Source of the DNA: a virus
Length of the DNA stretch: 43,649 bases
IMG/VR virus record: IMGVR_UViG_3300023094_000003
Location: 1-43,649 of that record
Strand: one strand, 5' to 3'
Under the pieces are notes generated by a model. That model did not search any database and had not been told where the DNA came from. It was given only the letters and a program-made list of their open reading frames with translations. This document shows positions 1 to 43,649 of this stretch, piece by piece. Each line of letters opens with the position of its first letter. Position 1 is the first letter of the stretch. The translations under genes were made by a program, and so were the position numbers.

Positions 1-127
1 GAAGAAGCTCATCAACGGTATGCAGGAACAGTCTACTGAACTCTTGAATCTGGCTAACGCTGGTAAGAAGATTAAAGGCCAAGCTGATGTTACTGATTTG
101 GGACTGTGGATTCCATCTTTTAATCCA
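1..127. repeat. Terminal overlap of a circular contig, copy 1
   Basis: These 127 bases are identical to 43523-43649. The repeat lies wholly inside one open reading frame, which continues in frame when the ends are joined. This marks a closed circle cut at an arbitrary point and not a packaged terminal repeat. A length of 127 also matches a common assembler k-mer size, which is known practice and not something the sequence proves. Confidence 0.95.
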
Positions 128-2380
128 GTTAATAAGTTCATTGCTTACGTGCATAACGCAGGGGATGATACTACCAAGATGATCTGGGCTAATGGCAAAG
201 AGCAGTTTGAAGATGCTGTTCAGAGCTATAAGAAGTATATTCAAGAGAATGGGATGGGTGATAAAGTTCGTGTCGTAACCAAGGCAGAACAAGCTGACTG
301 GAACATTCTGAATGGTCGGCTCGACCCGATCACGATGGAAGTAGCTAACATTGGAATGCAAAAGACTGGTGCTGCTACTCAGGCTATTAATCGTTCAACC
401 TTGGATGTGTTTAGTGAAATAGCAGGAGGTTATGAACATTCTATTACTTCTCATGTACGGAATCTGGCTGAGCTGAATCTTCATGAAGTTACTGGCATGC
501 TCGATAACATGTCTGTAATTAATCAAGCTTCTGTTAAGAGTCAGCCTCTTGGGGAGATTAAGAAGATCATCAATCAGCCTAAGGATGCAGCTGCTACTCT
601 GAAGAATACCCTCCTAGGGAATTCAAACATTGGAGAATATGCAGGCTGGCAGAAGATCAACCAGAGCTTTGAGACCGGGCTCACAATGGGTTTGAATGCT
701 GTTACTTCTATCTGGGATGGTACTATTGGCTCCCTTACGAAGAGAGTATTCGGTAAGAACTCTGACCTCACTCCTGAGATTATGCGAAAGGTGGACTATG
801 AACAGATGGCTGCTGAATTGAAGACTAGGGGGATTGTCAATCCGTGGGCCTCCTTCGATGATGAAGCTGCCAAAATGTATGGCCTTTCCAAACTAGAAGA
901 TCACAAGGATTCCTCTAAGCGTATCATCTATGCGTCGAATGCTCTCGCTGCTACTGTTGCTCTGCGAATTGGTGAGCTTGCTCAGCCTATTGTTAATATT
1001 CTATCTCTCCCTATCCTCACGGGATTGGCTACTGCATCTAAAATGCCTGCTGAATTCATGGGTGTAGTGAGAGGGACGATGAAAGACGTAGGGGGTGTGC
1101 AGATTATGTATGAAGGGGCCAGGGCCGCCAATTCCCCGCTCTGGAAGAAGTTTGATGACCTCTGGACCAAACAGGGACATTACACCAGTTTGGTGAGTGA
1201 GGCGTCCAACGTGTTGAGGGCTTCTAGATCCTTCGAGAAGGGCGCTATTTCCAAGGTGGAGAACGCTCTTGACTCAAGGATGGTAGAAATCATGAGCAAA
1301 CCTGCCGATTGGTCTGAGAGCTTTGTGCGCCGTCAAACGATGTTCACGGGTGCCGTTTTGGCGAAACGCCTTTACCCTGAGCTATCTGACGAGGGAATCA
1401 CAATCTTTGCACGAGACTTCATGGACAAGGCTGTAGGGAACTTCCATGCTGCGCAACGACCAGTGTTCTTCCAAGGCACATTGGGTGTTGCACTGGGTCT
1501 ATTCCAAACGTACTCGCTGACTCTGGGGCAGAGCATCTATAGGCAATTGGAGATGAAGAACTATAAGGCTCTTGGGAAAGCAGCATTAACTCAGAGTGGT
1601 ATCTTCGGTGTAGGTTCAATGCCTGGGTTTAAGCAAATCTCAGAGACAATTGGAGATCATTTCAGTGATGAAAATGTTGATCTTACCACTGGAACTTATC
1701 GTGCTATTGGCGATAAGGCTGCTGATATGTTGCTATACGGTCTGCCTTCTAATCTTGGCCCTAGCTTCTATTCCCGTGGTGATGTTAGCATTAGGCCTCC
1801 AAATGTTCTGGCGGGTTTGCAGAATACTGTGGCGGTCTCGTTCGTAAGTCAGACACTGGATATGTTTGGGCAATTGAAGAATGCAATGGCTTCAGATAAT
1901 CCTGATATGGCTAGAGCATTGGGGGAGAGCCTGAGTATGCAGAGTATGTCTAGGCCACTGGCACGAGGTAGTGAATTGCTTACAGGGTATTCGGTGACAA
2001 GGAAGGGGAATACTGTACAAACCCCAGAGGAAGTATGGACTGCTACTGGTATCATGGCTAGAGTACTGGGGACACGACCTCTAGAAGAGGGTAAGCTTAG
2101 GGAAGCAATGCACTTGAATACCTTCTACGGTAGCAAGGATAGAGAAGCCAGGAATGCAGTTACTATGAAATTGAAGACTGCTATCCGAGGTGGTGAACTT
2201 ACTCAGGAGCAGATCGATGGATTCGCTGAACAGTATATGAGGAAAGGTGGAACTCCTACTGGCTGGCAGAGTGCATTGAATACTGCTGTGGCTCAGACGG
2301 ATATCAAAGGAGATATTACTTTGGTGGATAAGATGAAGCCAAACAATCCTTTGAACTATATGATTTCTAATCTTGATTAA
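1..2380 (+). CDS. Giant internal/ejection virion protein, C-terminal part (residues 1080-1872)
   Basis: This is the 3' part of the gene that starts at 40284. Codons begin at position 2, in phase with 40284, so the first ATG here (position 20) is internal residue 1087 and not a start. This half has a hydrophobic stretch around residues 1390-1435 (nt 930-1070) and further apolar segments. Near residue 1560 it has a segment rich in F, Q and Y (key run FQGTLGVALGLFQTY) of the kind seen in large podoviral ejection proteins. The expected role is a T7 gp16-like inner-core protein that enters the cell envelope with the DNA; this is inferred from size, place and composition. It is the last large gene of the late operon, and a short gene follows after 10 bases. 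The full protein is 1,872 residues. Confidence 0.8.
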   Translation, partial: KKLINGMQEQSTELLNLANAGKKIKGQADVTDLGLWIPSFNPVNKFIAYVHNAGDDTTKMIWANGKEQFEDAVQSYKKYIQENGMGDKVRVVTKAEQADWNILNGRLDPITMEVANIGMQKTGAATQAINRSTLDVFSEIAGGYEHSITSHVRNLAELNLHEVTGMLDNMSVINQASVKSQPLGEIKKIINQPKDAAATLKNTLLGNSNIGEYAGWQKINQSFETGLTMGLNAVTSIWDGTIGSLTKRVFGKNSDLTPEIMRKVDYEQMAAELKTRGIVNPWASFDDEAAKMYGLSKLEDHKDSSKRIIYASNALAATVALRIGELAQPIVNILSLPILTGLATASKMPAEFMGVVRGTMKDVGGVQIMYEGARAANSPLWKKFDDLWTKQGHYTSLVSEASNVLRASRSFEKGAISKVENALDSRMVEIMSKPADWSESFVRRQTMFTGAVLAKRLYPELSDEGITIFARDFMDKAVGNFHAAQRPVFFQGTLGVALGLFQTYSLTLGQSIYRQLEMKNYKALGKAALTQSGIFGVGSMPGFKQISETIGDHFSDENVDLTTGTYRAIGDKAADMLLYGLPSNLGPSFYSRGDVSIRPPNVLAGLQNTVAVSFVSQTLDMFGQLKNAMASDNPDMARALGESLSMQSMSRPLARGSELLTGYSVTRKGNTVQTPEEVWTATGIMARVLGTRPLEEGKLREAMHLNTFYGSKDREARNAVTMKLKTAIRGGELTQEQIDGFAEQYMRKGGTPTGWQSALNTAVAQTDIKGDITLVDKMKPNNPLNYMISNLD

Positions 2381-21434: not shown

Positions 21435-21790
21435 ATTGACAAATTTCTTTGTAACCAAAACCCTCCAGAATGCCGTTATTTTCGAAGGGGGTGTCCCATG
21501 CACCTCTATCTTTCATTGCATGCATGGGAGCTAATAGAAGGCCTGGAGATTAAGTCTATCCTATCTACCTTGGTATATGTGTCTATTCAAAAAATTTAGT
21601 AAAAATTTAATCTTTAGAATTTTTTATATACCTATGAATATCTAATTACTAGGCTCAGCTACTACCTGCGTTAGAGCTACTAGCTATCTACCTATTATCT
21701 CCCTTGTGTGCGTAAACCGAAAGATAGGGGTCACTGGTACACCCCCCAAAGAAAAAATCGCATTCCCGGAGAAATTGGTAATTTGTCAAT
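21435..21790. repeat. Inverted pair of ATTGACAAATT spanning the noncoding island
   Basis: ATTGACAAATT at 21435-21445 recurs as its exact reverse complement at 21780-21790. Each contains TTGACA, the -35 consensus, but no matching -10 follows at normal spacing on either strand. The pair brackets the AT-rich core, so they may be protein-binding sites. Confidence 0.5.
21494..21529. repeat. Inverted repeat TCCCATGCA / TGCATGGGA
   Basis: Perfect 9-base arms at 21494-21502 and 21521-21529 are separated by 18 bases. The right arm overlaps a TGCATGCA palindrome. No U-tract follows on either strand, so it is more likely a binding site or structured element than a terminator. Confidence 0.55.
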
Positions 21791-24065: not shown

Positions 24066-25586
24066 GTGGCTGAACTATCCTCTGCACCTGCTACTCTTGA
24101 GTCTTCCCCAGGTGCGGAGCTAGTAACAGGCCAATTTGACCCAGCTGAAGCTTATCTTCGGGGGCAGGTAGACATTAACTTCTATGCTGCTTTGATGCTT
24201 CCGACGGTTATGCTGTCCCAGCTGCCTAGATTCTATGTAGCTGCCTTTCAGCTCTTAGTAACACGAGGGCCAGAAGCAATAGGGAAGATTCTACGCTTTG
24301 CACTAGGCCTTCCTCGAGGTCATGCGAAGACAACGTTTATTAAAGTAGTTATTAGCTGGCTTATCGTATATGATAAGATCAGCTTTGCTTTGATTATCTG
24401 TGCGAATGAGGGACTTGCTGAAGAGCTTCTTTCTGACATTAACGACATTCTTAGGAGTCCTAATGCAGAACTAGTCTATGGACAGTGGGATGCTGTCCTG
24501 ACCACAGACTCAAAGGAGCTTAAAAAGGCATTCTATCATGATCGACCGGTAATCTTAGCAGCACGCGGGGCGGGGAGCAGCGTTCGAGGTTTGAACATTA
24601 AACATACTCGGCCAGACTTAATCTTCTGTGACGATATGCAGACCCGTGAGAACGATGAATCAGTAGCGGAACGCGGAAAACTCCGTCGTTGGATGGTAGC
24701 TACTCTTTTCAAGCTCCTCGCTCCACGGGGGGATCGACTTATTATCTACGTAGGTAATATGTATTCTACGGAATGCATTCTTTACCAGCTGCAACAGAAC
24801 CCTTCATGGGTTTCTCTCATTACAGGAGCTATTCTAGAGAATGGTGAACCTCTCTGGCCTGAGTTGCACTCTATGGAGTCTCTTATGGAGAGCTATTTCC
24901 ATGATGAGAGTCTAAACGAAGCTGATGTATGGTTCGCTGAGGTGATGAATGATCCTACCAGTAAAGCTACTAGCTTGCTTGGAGATCCTTTACCTCTTAT
25001 TCCTTACAGGGTAGAGCAAGTTATCTTCGATGGCGTCTACATTACCATTGACCCTGCTGGCTTCAGAGATGTTAGTGATGATAATGTCATTGTAGTCCAC
25101 GGTGTTCGTGATGGTAAGGGTGCTGTTATCAAAGCAAGCGCAGGAATTAAAGATCCTAAGCAGCTTATCGTTGAAACACTAGCTCTAGCTATAGAACATG
25201 GGGCATCTGTAATAGGAGTTGAAGCTAATGGATACCAACAAACTCTTGGATTCTGGTTCAAAGAGCTCATGGGGCCCCTCGGATTGTCTGCAATTGAGGT
25301 TGTTGAGCTTGGATCCCATGGACGATCTAAAGAGGCGCGTATTAGACAGTTTATTGCCGAACTCTACAGTGAATCTTACTACCTTAGCGACGAAGTCCGT
25401 GCTGCCTTTATATGGCAAGCAATGAAATATAAGCTCGGACAGAAGAAAAACAAGGACGACTTACTAGATGGCTGCGCTTATGGCCTAGATATGAGAAACC
25501 AATACTGGCATTTGATCAAGAACATGAATGCTACTCAGAAATATCTTACTGCAGCTGGTGTGCAGAATGATAATACCCCCTTTTAG
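24066..25586 (+). CDS. terL: Terminase large subunit (506 aa)
   Basis: Packages DNA into the prohead. Walker A is GLPRGHAKTT (81-90) and Walker B is LIFCDD (185-190). The C-terminal RNase H-like nuclease has D329 (YITIDPAG), E386 (GVEANG) and D464/D468 (KDDLLDG). The start is GTG 24066, with AAAAGG upstream, 14 bases after the preceding stop. Its length and motif spacing fit the family of podovirus-type terminases. Confidence 0.95.
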   Translation: MAELSSAPATLESSPGAELVTGQFDPAEAYLRGQVDINFYAALMLPTVMLSQLPRFYVAAFQLLVTRGPEAIGKILRFALGLPRGHAKTTFIKVVISWLIVYDKISFALIICANEGLAEELLSDINDILRSPNAELVYGQWDAVLTTDSKELKKAFYHDRPVILAARGAGSSVRGLNIKHTRPDLIFCDDMQTRENDESVAERGKLRRWMVATLFKLLAPRGDRLIIYVGNMYSTECILYQLQQNPSWVSLITGAILENGEPLWPELHSMESLMESYFHDESLNEADVWFAEVMNDPTSKATSLLGDPLPLIPYRVEQVIFDGVYITIDPAGFRDVSDDNVIVVHGVRDGKGAVIKASAGIKDPKQLIVETLALAIEHGASVIGVEANGYQQTLGFWFKELMGPLGLSAIEVVELGSHGRSKEARIRQFIAELYSESYYLSDEVRAAFIWQAMKYKLGQKKNKDDLLDGCAYGLDMRNQYWHLIKNMNATQKYLTAAGVQNDNTPF

Positions 25587-40283: not shown

Positions 40284-43200
40284 ATGGCTGAAGAGAATAC
40301 CTTTGACAATGTCATTAACACTGACTTCCATAACTCGAACTATCAGACTCAGCTTGATCTGACTCGGACTATTACAGGTGGGGCTGTAGCTACTGTGACA
40401 GATGCAGCAGCTTCTATCTGGAATAGTCTTCCTATAACTCCAGAAGTGGAGACTAGAGACTTGCTGGGAAGAATCAGTAATGATGCTCTGCAAGTTTACA
40501 ATGAGAATCCTGAAGCTATTGAAACTGCCTCTTTTGTGGCAGGTAGTCTGCTGCCTATTGGTATCGCAACTAAGAGCATGGGAGCTGCTAGAGCTGGTGT
40601 CAAGGGTATGAATTGGTTCTCTAAGGCAGGAAAAGAAGCTGACCTTAGTGTGATTAATACTCTTTTCTCTGAAGGTAAAGCAGCTACTAGTGAGTATAAG
40701 AGTCTTCTCAGGCAAACTTATGCTAAGGGTGCAGTCAATCAAGCCATTGATGCACTAGCTGCTGAAGTAGCTATTGTCGGCATGATGAATGCTCATCCTT
40801 TGATGGAAGACTATCTAGAAGATCCAGTTAAGAACTTCGCCATTTCTGCTGCCTTTGGCGGCGTGATTGGCGGAGCTATTGGTCATATCGGTGACAGATA
40901 TGCTGTTAGAAGTTTGACTGGAGCTACTGAAGCTAAGGCTATTCAGGAGACTCTTGGACAACTTAGGGATATTGCACCAGATATGACTTCTGCTGTTAAG
41001 CTCCAGAGCTATGCACTGAATGTTAAGAACCTTGATAACATGCTGGAAATGGGTAAGGTAGAAGGAAAACTGCCCACTAATAATCTTGCTATGTCCTTTG
41101 CTGAGAAGATGAAGGAAACTCAGAGTGCGATGCAAGCTACTCTATTTGATGACATTGCTTCTCCCATGATTAAGAATCTTCCAAAAGAGGAAAGAGACTT
41201 CTTCATGCGTGCAGTAGTGGAAATGCCAGAGATGTTTGGTGTTGAGAAGGTGTCTTTGTTTACGGAAAAGCAAGCTACGGGTAAGGCGGGATTGAAAGGT
41301 CCTAAGGAGGTACTGACTGCTAAACCGGAACTGGCTAAGATTGAAGGAGCTACTGTAGGTGGCTGGCCCTCGATCGCCCCTATGGAATTCAATAATCTTA
41401 AGAATAAACTTACTAATGAGTGGCTTTCAGCTCATCCTAATAGTGAGATTTATAAAGCTTATGATACTGCACTTGATGCAGCTAGCTTGCCCAATGATTG
41501 GATTGAAGCACTTAAAGTAGCACAGAAAGAAAAGAATGTTGAGCTTGAGAACTTCGTAGGTTATAAGCTTGAACGCTTTCTTGAAGATACTCAGAAGAAC
41601 TCTCCTTCGGATGCTGTGAAGCTGGAAGCTAAACTTAGTGCGTTTCGTCCTAAGGGTACTCCAGGAGTTCTGAAAGAAGTTAAGAGTGTCTACTACCCCG
41701 AGCATAAGCTCTTCGGTCTTGAGAGTGATGTTACCAACTATGGTAATGCTGCCTCTTTGGGAAAGACTCTTCCTGATCTAGAGAAGACATACGCAGGTGC
41801 TTACAATTTCGGTAAGGTACCTAATCTTGACTCGGCCCTCGAATTGGCCGGGAAGAGTAGCGCGGAAATTGATGGTCTATTCGCTGCTTATAAGAGTCGT
41901 GTCTCTAAGATGGATGAGACTGCCCTTAAGAATCTTACTATCGGGCAAGATGATCTCCCTCTTCTCAGTGCAGTAATCACCAAGATCAAAGAAGATCCTG
42001 CTATGGTTATGAAACTTCAGATGAAAGTTTCTGATCGTAGTCCTGTCTTTGAGGCTATTCTGAAGAGTAATGCAGGTAAGACTGGCGCAGGTATGCCTCA
42101 GGATTATGCACAGGAAGTAGGTAAGTTCACAGCTCCGGGTAAGATTAATCAATATAAGCCCGGTGCTCTGAGTACTCTCGATGGTGATGCTGAGAAGTTC
42201 ATTAGTGCATGGCTTGCGGGGGATCAGAAGTATCTCAATAGAGCTGCTCTCTCTTGGTCTGCTAAAGGCTTTAGTGCTGCTAGTCCTGATCCTCAGATGG
42301 TGACTGGTAAGAGAATCTTTGATGCAATTTACAATAGTCAAGAGTCTACTGCTCTGAGGGATCAATTCCGTAGAGTAGCGGATATCAATGGCGATGTTTA
42401 TCTCTATCGGGGTAGTAGGGCCAGCAAGATTACACAACAAAACATTCTGGAATCTTACTCGACAGACCCTAAGAAGGCAGCAGAGTTCGGTACTGTTCGT
42501 ATGTACAAGGTGCATGTGGATAATATTGCTGCAGGATGGGATGATCTTAAAAGCTCAGATGGCCTGAGGAAGAATGAGATTCTTGTCCTCTCTGGAGCTC
42601 GTCCTGAAGAAGCTGTCTTGGATGCTAACTTGAAGCCTGTCTTTAAGAATCAACAACAACAAGGTGCAATTGTTGTCAGTGATAAGAACAGTAAGTCTGT
42701 TTACGTCTCTGATCTTGAAGACCTTCTTGTCTCAGGAAAAGAACAGCAGATTGATTCTCTTCTCTCTCAAGGTATTCCAATGCAGTCTATCGCATTGAAG
42801 ACGAATACACCAGTCAATATCGTGGAAGCTTATGCTTTTGCTAAGCCTTCAGGTACTGGCTTGCGTGAGCTTGTCCAAGATGTTAATGAGCTTATTACTA
42901 CGAAGACTCTTGCTGTTGCAGAAGAAAGGACTAAGATTCAGAATGCACCTCTCCGTCTGGAAGGGAATATCAAGAAGAATCCTTATACTGAAGCTCATGC
43001 TAGTCTGAACAACAAGCAGATGAAAGATATGTCAGATACCATCATGATGGCGTCTATGTATTCTTCGCAATCAGGAGCTGTCAGAGAGATGGCTGATTTC
43101 TTCTACAAGGAGATGAAACAACCTCTGGATATCCTGAAGACTGAATTGGCTAGAGTTAACAATGAGTATGCAGGGAATAAGTTCCTAAATAGTACGGATT

Positions 43201-43649
43201 TCTGGGCTAGGAATATGGGCTCCGTGGGGCCGATTGCTTCTGCTATTGGTAAGCAAGTAGAGCGCATTGGAAATGATCTGAAGAAACGAGTGATCACTCC
43301 TATCTCTGATGCAATGGCTACTGTTGCTAAGGACGCCCCGAGTACCATCGAGTTCAATACATTCGTTAACTTGAATGCTTCTCTTAAAGGATGGAGACAA
43401 TTTACCCCTGACGGTACTCTTGTTCAACGTGTAGAGAAGATGGGTATTGATGGTAAGATCGCAGTAGTCCTGGAGCCTGTGCAGTTTGAAGGTAAGGTTT
43501 ACAGAGTAACCCAAGAGAGCGTGAAGAAGCTCATCAACGGTATGCAGGAACAGTCTACTGAACTCTTGAATCTGGCTAACGCTGGTAAGAAGATTAAAGG
43601 CCAAGCTGATGTTACTGATTTGGGACTGTGGATTCCATCTTTTAATCCA
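40284..43649 (+). CDS. Giant internal/ejection virion protein, N-terminal part, with ADP-ribosyltransferase-like domain
   Basis: The gene starts at ATG 40284 (weak AAAGAGA site) and continues through the junction to 2380; the full product is 1,872 aa. Residues ~70-210 have apolar helices (ISAAFGGVIGGAIGHIG). At ~640-790 is an R-S-E type ADP-ribosyltransferase signature: LYRG with Arg709, SYSTDPKKAAEFG with Ser726-Thr727, and KNEILVLSG with Glu765, preceded by a helical region (GDAEKFISAWLAGDQ). Such enzymes move ADP-ribose from NAD to protein; T4 Alt is an injected example. The rest is the long helical and apolar part of an ejection protein. So the protein may deliver an effector with the DNA; activity is not proven. 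Confidence 0.85.
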   Translation, partial: MAEENTFDNVINTDFHNSNYQTQLDLTRTITGGAVATVTDAAASIWNSLPITPEVETRDLLGRISNDALQVYNENPEAIETASFVAGSLLPIGIATKSMGAARAGVKGMNWFSKAGKEADLSVINTLFSEGKAATSEYKSLLRQTYAKGAVNQAIDALAAEVAIVGMMNAHPLMEDYLEDPVKNFAISAAFGGVIGGAIGHIGDRYAVRSLTGATEAKAIQETLGQLRDIAPDMTSAVKLQSYALNVKNLDNMLEMGKVEGKLPTNNLAMSFAEKMKETQSAMQATLFDDIASPMIKNLPKEERDFFMRAVVEMPEMFGVEKVSLFTEKQATGKAGLKGPKEVLTAKPELAKIEGATVGGWPSIAPMEFNNLKNKLTNEWLSAHPNSEIYKAYDTALDAASLPNDWIEALKVAQKEKNVELENFVGYKLERFLEDTQKNSPSDAVKLEAKLSAFRPKGTPGVLKEVKSVYYPEHKLFGLESDVTNYGNAASLGKTLPDLEKTYAGAYNFGKVPNLDSALELAGKSSAEIDGLFAAYKSRVSKMDETALKNLTIGQDDLPLLSAVITKIKEDPAMVMKLQMKVSDRSPVFEAILKSNAGKTGAGMPQDYAQEVGKFTAPGKINQYKPGALSTLDGDAEKFISAWLAGDQKYLNRAALSWSAKGFSAASPDPQMVTGKRIFDAIYNSQESTALRDQFRRVADINGDVYLYRGSRASKITQQNILESYSTDPKKAAEFGTVRMYKVHVDNIAAGWDDLKSSDGLRKNEILVLSGARPEEAVLDANLKPVFKNQQQQGAIVVSDKNSKSVYVSDLEDLLVSGKEQQIDSLLSQGIPMQSIALKTNTPVNIVEAYAFAKPSGTGLRELVQDVNELITTKTLAVAEERTKIQNAPLRLEGNIKKNPYTEAHASLNNKQMKDMSDTIMMASMYSSQSGAVREMADFFYKEMKQPLDILKTELARVNNEYAGNKFLNSTDFWARNMGSVGPIASAIGKQVERIGNDLKKRVITPISDAMATVAKDAPSTIEFNTFVNLNASLKGWRQFTPDGTLVQRVEKMGIDGKIAVVLEPVQFEGKVYRVTQESVKKLINGMQEQSTELLNLANAGKKIKGQADVTDLGLWIPSFNP
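43523..43649. repeat. Terminal overlap of a circular contig, copy 2
   Basis: Identical to bases 1-127. It lies within the giant virion gene and keeps frame when the ends are joined. The two copies should be collapsed to give a 43,522-base circle. Confidence 0.95.

Follow-up and report, generated by a model that had tools for sequence, protein, structure and literature searches.

A 127-bp repeat at the ends of a PaMx41/Tiera-like podophage record, very probably an assembler overlap, divides one virion protein gene

Introduction

The virus record IMGVR_UViG_3300023094_000003 begins and ends with the same bases, and each end lies within an open reading frame. This raises the question of whether the repeated bases are a feature of the virion DNA or a product of the assembly, and consequently whether the record should be annotated with two incomplete genes or a single large one.

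Results and Discussion

The terminal repeat and the gene it divides

The window analyzed here was the entire virus record, 43,649 bases in length. Exact comparison of its ends showed that bases 1-127 and 43523-43649 are identical at 127 of 127 positions, in full agreement with a sequence-only reading made earlier. When all end-overlap lengths were compared, 127 was the sole length of terminal overlap, with none longer, and a search of the record for this 127-mer located it twice only, at the two ends. The probability of an exact match of 127 bases arising by chance is negligible. The features discussed below are listed in Table 1.

Table 1. Features of the 43,649-base window that are relevant to its ends
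Feature	Position	Strand	Basis
First copy of the 127-bp terminal overlap (redundant; very probably an assembler k-mer)	1..127	+	Identical to 43523-43649; equal length in four relatives at unrelated positions
3' part (codons 1081-1872 + stop; first 42 codons = overlap) of the giant gene	2..2380	+	ORF, open at 5' end; alignments to relatives unbroken across the join
Stretch preceding the small terminase gene, candidate area for packaged ends	21159..23264		Gene order compared with record ends of PaP2, 119X, Ph_15 and PaMx41
Large terminase gene, map origin for comparing break points	24066..25586	+	PHROG 38, E 1e-64
Codons 1-1122 (5' part) of the gene for the 1,872-aa virion (ejection-like) protein	40284..43649	+	ORF, open at 3' end; PHROG 16165; aligned with Tiera gp22 and PaMx41 gp24
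Second copy of the 127-bp terminal overlap	43523..43649	+	Identity with 1-127

The open reading frame at the right end of the record contained 1,122 codons and had no stop at its 3' end. That at the left end was open at its 5' end, and its first ATG, at position 20 and in phase, would give a product of 786 aa. Joining the two with a single copy of the repeat (40284..43649 + 128..2380) restored a continuous gene of 1,872 aa, which was free of stops up to a single terminal stop. As 127 is not divisible by three, retention of both copies shifted the frame and resulted in a stop at codon 1135. The earlier reading had pointed to the shared frame of the two copies, and the copies do share a frame; however, identical copies necessarily do so, and the evidence therefore comes from the open frames on both flanks and the homology across the join.

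Comparisons with relatives indicated that the gene is normally intact. Its homologue in Tiera, PaMx41 and 119X is an uninterrupted CDS of 1,845-1,849 aa that closes the structural module and is located mid-record (Tiera gp22, 1,845 aa; PaMx41 gp24, 1,849 aa; 119X gp25, 1,849 aa). The alignment with Tiera gp22 had no indel at the join, and identity was 44% over the 100 residues that precede the overlap, 51% within it and 40% over the 100 residues that follow. When searched alone against IMG/VR, neither half of the gene produced a confirmed relative, and IMG/VR relatives were gathered instead via alignments of the capsid protein and terminase. In the resulting 19 IMG/VR records, one of which (G019) is the PaP2 sequence, the gene was a single open frame, uninterrupted by stops, of 1,523-1,888 aa. 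All 20 of the relative loci from these records matched the joined protein downstream of the join by blastp, and for most of them a single alignment spanned the join (residues 1081-1123). Together, the one-copy frame and the intact homologues bear out the claim that the window carries one 1,872-residue gene. The warning that the 786-residue part would be given a false start was also justified, as the alignments through the join identified the ATG at 20 as an internal methionine.

The giant protein is a putative ejection-type virion protein, based on its position, its size and the annotation in the Ph_15 record, in which the homologue is named as an ejection protein/peptidoglycan transglycosylase. 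A Pfam search provided no support for peptidoglycan transglycosylase activity. In a profile search, PHROG 16165 (profile length 1849) matched residues 19-362 of the joined protein. Elsewhere in the protein, residues ~690-770 (window 42351-42593, + strand) have a motif order like that of an R-S-E-type ADP-ribosyltransferase (VYLYRG, ESYST, NEILV), which is conserved in relatives, and the R, S and E were invariant in an alignment of six sequences. The Pfam DRAT match to the giant protein was weak (E 0.029), and the structure model, which was of poor quality, yielded no fold match. Residues ~582-797 were skipped in the alignments of the joined protein to two of the IMG/VR relatives (G003 and G005), as if, judged from these sequences, the segment were a removable cassette.

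The phage and its relatives

The record represents a new PaMx41/Tiera-like podophage. Its rightward structural module encodes the terminase, portal, capsid and virion proteins, and its leftward replication module a primase, DNA polymerase, Sak4-like protein, exonuclease and Dda-like helicase. The terminase, portal, capsid and giant genes are homologous to those of PaMx41 and follow the PaMx41 order, as in a Fredfastierviridae-like podophage. The closest isolate is Polaromonas phage Tiera (OQ067478), which is unclassified below Caudoviricetes and whose proteins have identities to those of the window of 60% (large terminase), 65% (capsid protein) and ~47% (giant protein). Tiera differs from the window in its genome of 45,327 bp and in its record starting 227 bp before the small terminase gene. 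Members of the genus Jamesmcgillvirus (PaMx41, 119X and PaP2; Fredfastierviridae) resemble the window in gene order and have homologous terminase, capsid protein and giant genes, with identities of 39%, 52% and ~33% for the large terminase, capsid protein and giant protein, respectively.

Overlaps at the ends of related records

Both ends were read in 18 near-complete IMG/VR relatives. An exact end overlap of 127 bp was present in four (G004, G005, G011 and G017), one of 123 bp in another four (G003, G009, G013 and G014) and one of 99 bp in G008; overlaps of 94, 114, 52, 28 and 4,191 bp were each found in a single record, and the remaining 4 of the 18 had none. The break points of the relatives with overlaps were scattered between 1.9 and 42.5 kb downstream of the start of the large terminase gene, that of the window being at 19.6 kb. 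Comparison of 13 overlap sequences of 52 to 127 bp, that of the window included, revealed no resemblance between any two. Equal lengths thus recurred at unrelated places in other contigs (127 bp four times, 123 bp four times), and as the lengths are common while the places and sequences differ, an assembler parameter fits these data and a packaging signal does not. No terminal repeats were found in the deposited Pseudomonas and Polaromonas phage records tested.

The record with the longest overlap, G002 (IMG/VR 3300000233_000003; L213, L214), has 47,771 bp with an exact end overlap of 4,191 bp, which implies a true unit of 43,580 bp and results in capsid-protein genes appearing at both ends.

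Origin of the repeat

We are almost certain that the 127-bp end repeat is the k-mer overlap left by an assembler when a circular assembly graph was cut at an arbitrary point. The record would then represent one full turn of the circular graph of a podophage resembling PaMx41 and Tiera. The cycle would have been opened arbitrarily, here within codons ~1081-1122 of the 1,872-aa gene, by a de Bruijn assembler with a final k of 127, which printed one 127-mer twice, once at each end; with a single copy, the true unit is 43,522 bp. The assembler and the k behind this particular record are inferred. A repeat of this length equals a k used by metaSPAdes, as k values of 33, 55, 77, 99 and 127 were employed in a published metagenome assembly (PMC7171226). 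In addition, the authors of CheckV reported that circular templates give end repeats at assembler k-mer lengths (PMC8116208). Their "DTR contigs" (Extended Data Fig. 3 of that paper) resemble the window in having an exact repeat of k length, an arbitrary position and a circular template; the example lengths in the legend are 55, 77 and 99, and the 127 of the window is not among them but is a k in PMC7171226. The proposal of the sequence-only reading that the length reflects an assembler overlap is therefore supported by the recurrence at unrelated sites, the published k-length repeats and the k = 127 setting. The overlaps of 94, 114, 52 and 28 bp in some relatives correspond to non-standard k values, which indicates that the simple rule is not universal. 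The length of 123 bp is presumably a MEGAHIT setting in use at JGI; a literature search on assembler k-mer lists did not confirm it as such.

The ends could be explained in other ways. The 127 bp could be a genuine direct terminal repeat of the short, T7-like kind on a linear virion genome; the packaged ends would then be situated within the large virion gene, which circularization or concatemer formation would restore. The repeat is indeed exact and terminal, and its length falls in the range covered by known short terminal repeats. Moreover, terminally redundant ends were reported for Shea, a member of the PaMx41 group, in a PhageTerm analysis (PMC13348215). However, a repeat here would interrupt a conserved virion gene found intact in every relative checked, rather than lie at a conserved end site that relatives share outside essential genes; none of the IMG/VR or deposited relatives examined has its break point or record ends in this gene, and relatives show the same length at unrelated sites. 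We consequently regard a true terminal repeat as very improbable. More improbable still is the idea that the virion DNA begins and ends inside the giant gene as a late-expression switch, with the full protein made only after circularization or concatemer formation. A chimeric join, in which the ends come from different genomes sharing a 127-bp segment, is also highly unlikely: our analyses produced no supporting evidence for it, the join is in frame, the alignments to Tiera and PaMx41 are collinear and of even identity on either side of it, and gene order round the circle matches that of Tiera, PaMx41 and 119X.

An assembler overlap is an ordinary artefact of a known kind, and its use is limited to correct annotation. 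The record should be handled as a 43,522-bp circle in which a single 1,872-aa gene takes the place of the two fragments and no start is annotated at the ATG at 20. The repeat is not evidence on packaging.

Form of the virion DNA and candidate packaged ends

The sequence-only reading described the window as a closed circle. This holds for the assembly graph but not as a statement on the molecule, which need not be circular because a circularly permuted virion genome, or a linear one whose terminal repeats exceed k, would be assembled into this circle too. It is possible, although we hold this only tentatively and think it somewhat unlikely, that headful packaging produces virion DNA with circular permutation and terminal redundancy, which would make the circle real at the level of the population and the break point meaningless. 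This possibility relates solely to the molecule and does not conflict with the 127 bp being an artefact. Permuted genomes yield a circular graph, and the break points were scattered among the relatives, as headful packaging would have it. However, an assembler scatters break points for any circular graph, genomes with fixed ends also yield this circle when their repeats exceed k, and four Pseudomonas phage records have a common start/end site that could mean fixed ends.

These four Jamesmcgillvirus records (PaP2, 119X, Ph_15 and PaMx41) all start and end at the same position, which is intergenic and lies upstream of the small terminase gene. This common point could reflect either a genuine genome end or a convention that was copied, and it was therefore not taken to prove where the packaged ends lie. 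The sequences of TF17, Neko and 20Aug470 read straight across this site. In the four records, which come from different depositors (record ends L002, L003, L215-L218), the site is a short AT-rich sequence, being TTAT|ATAA in PaMx41, and its sequence differs among the Pseudomonas phage strains (TATATCAG, TAGATCAG).

In the window, the candidate area for packaged ends (Table 1) was placed by gene order relative to the terminase, and its correspondence to the Pseudomonas phage site is rough. Upstream of the small terminase gene, near where the records of relatives start, there is also an imperfect inverted repeat of 47 nt (21468-21514 / 21719-21765), the arms of which are 72% complementary and 204 nt apart.
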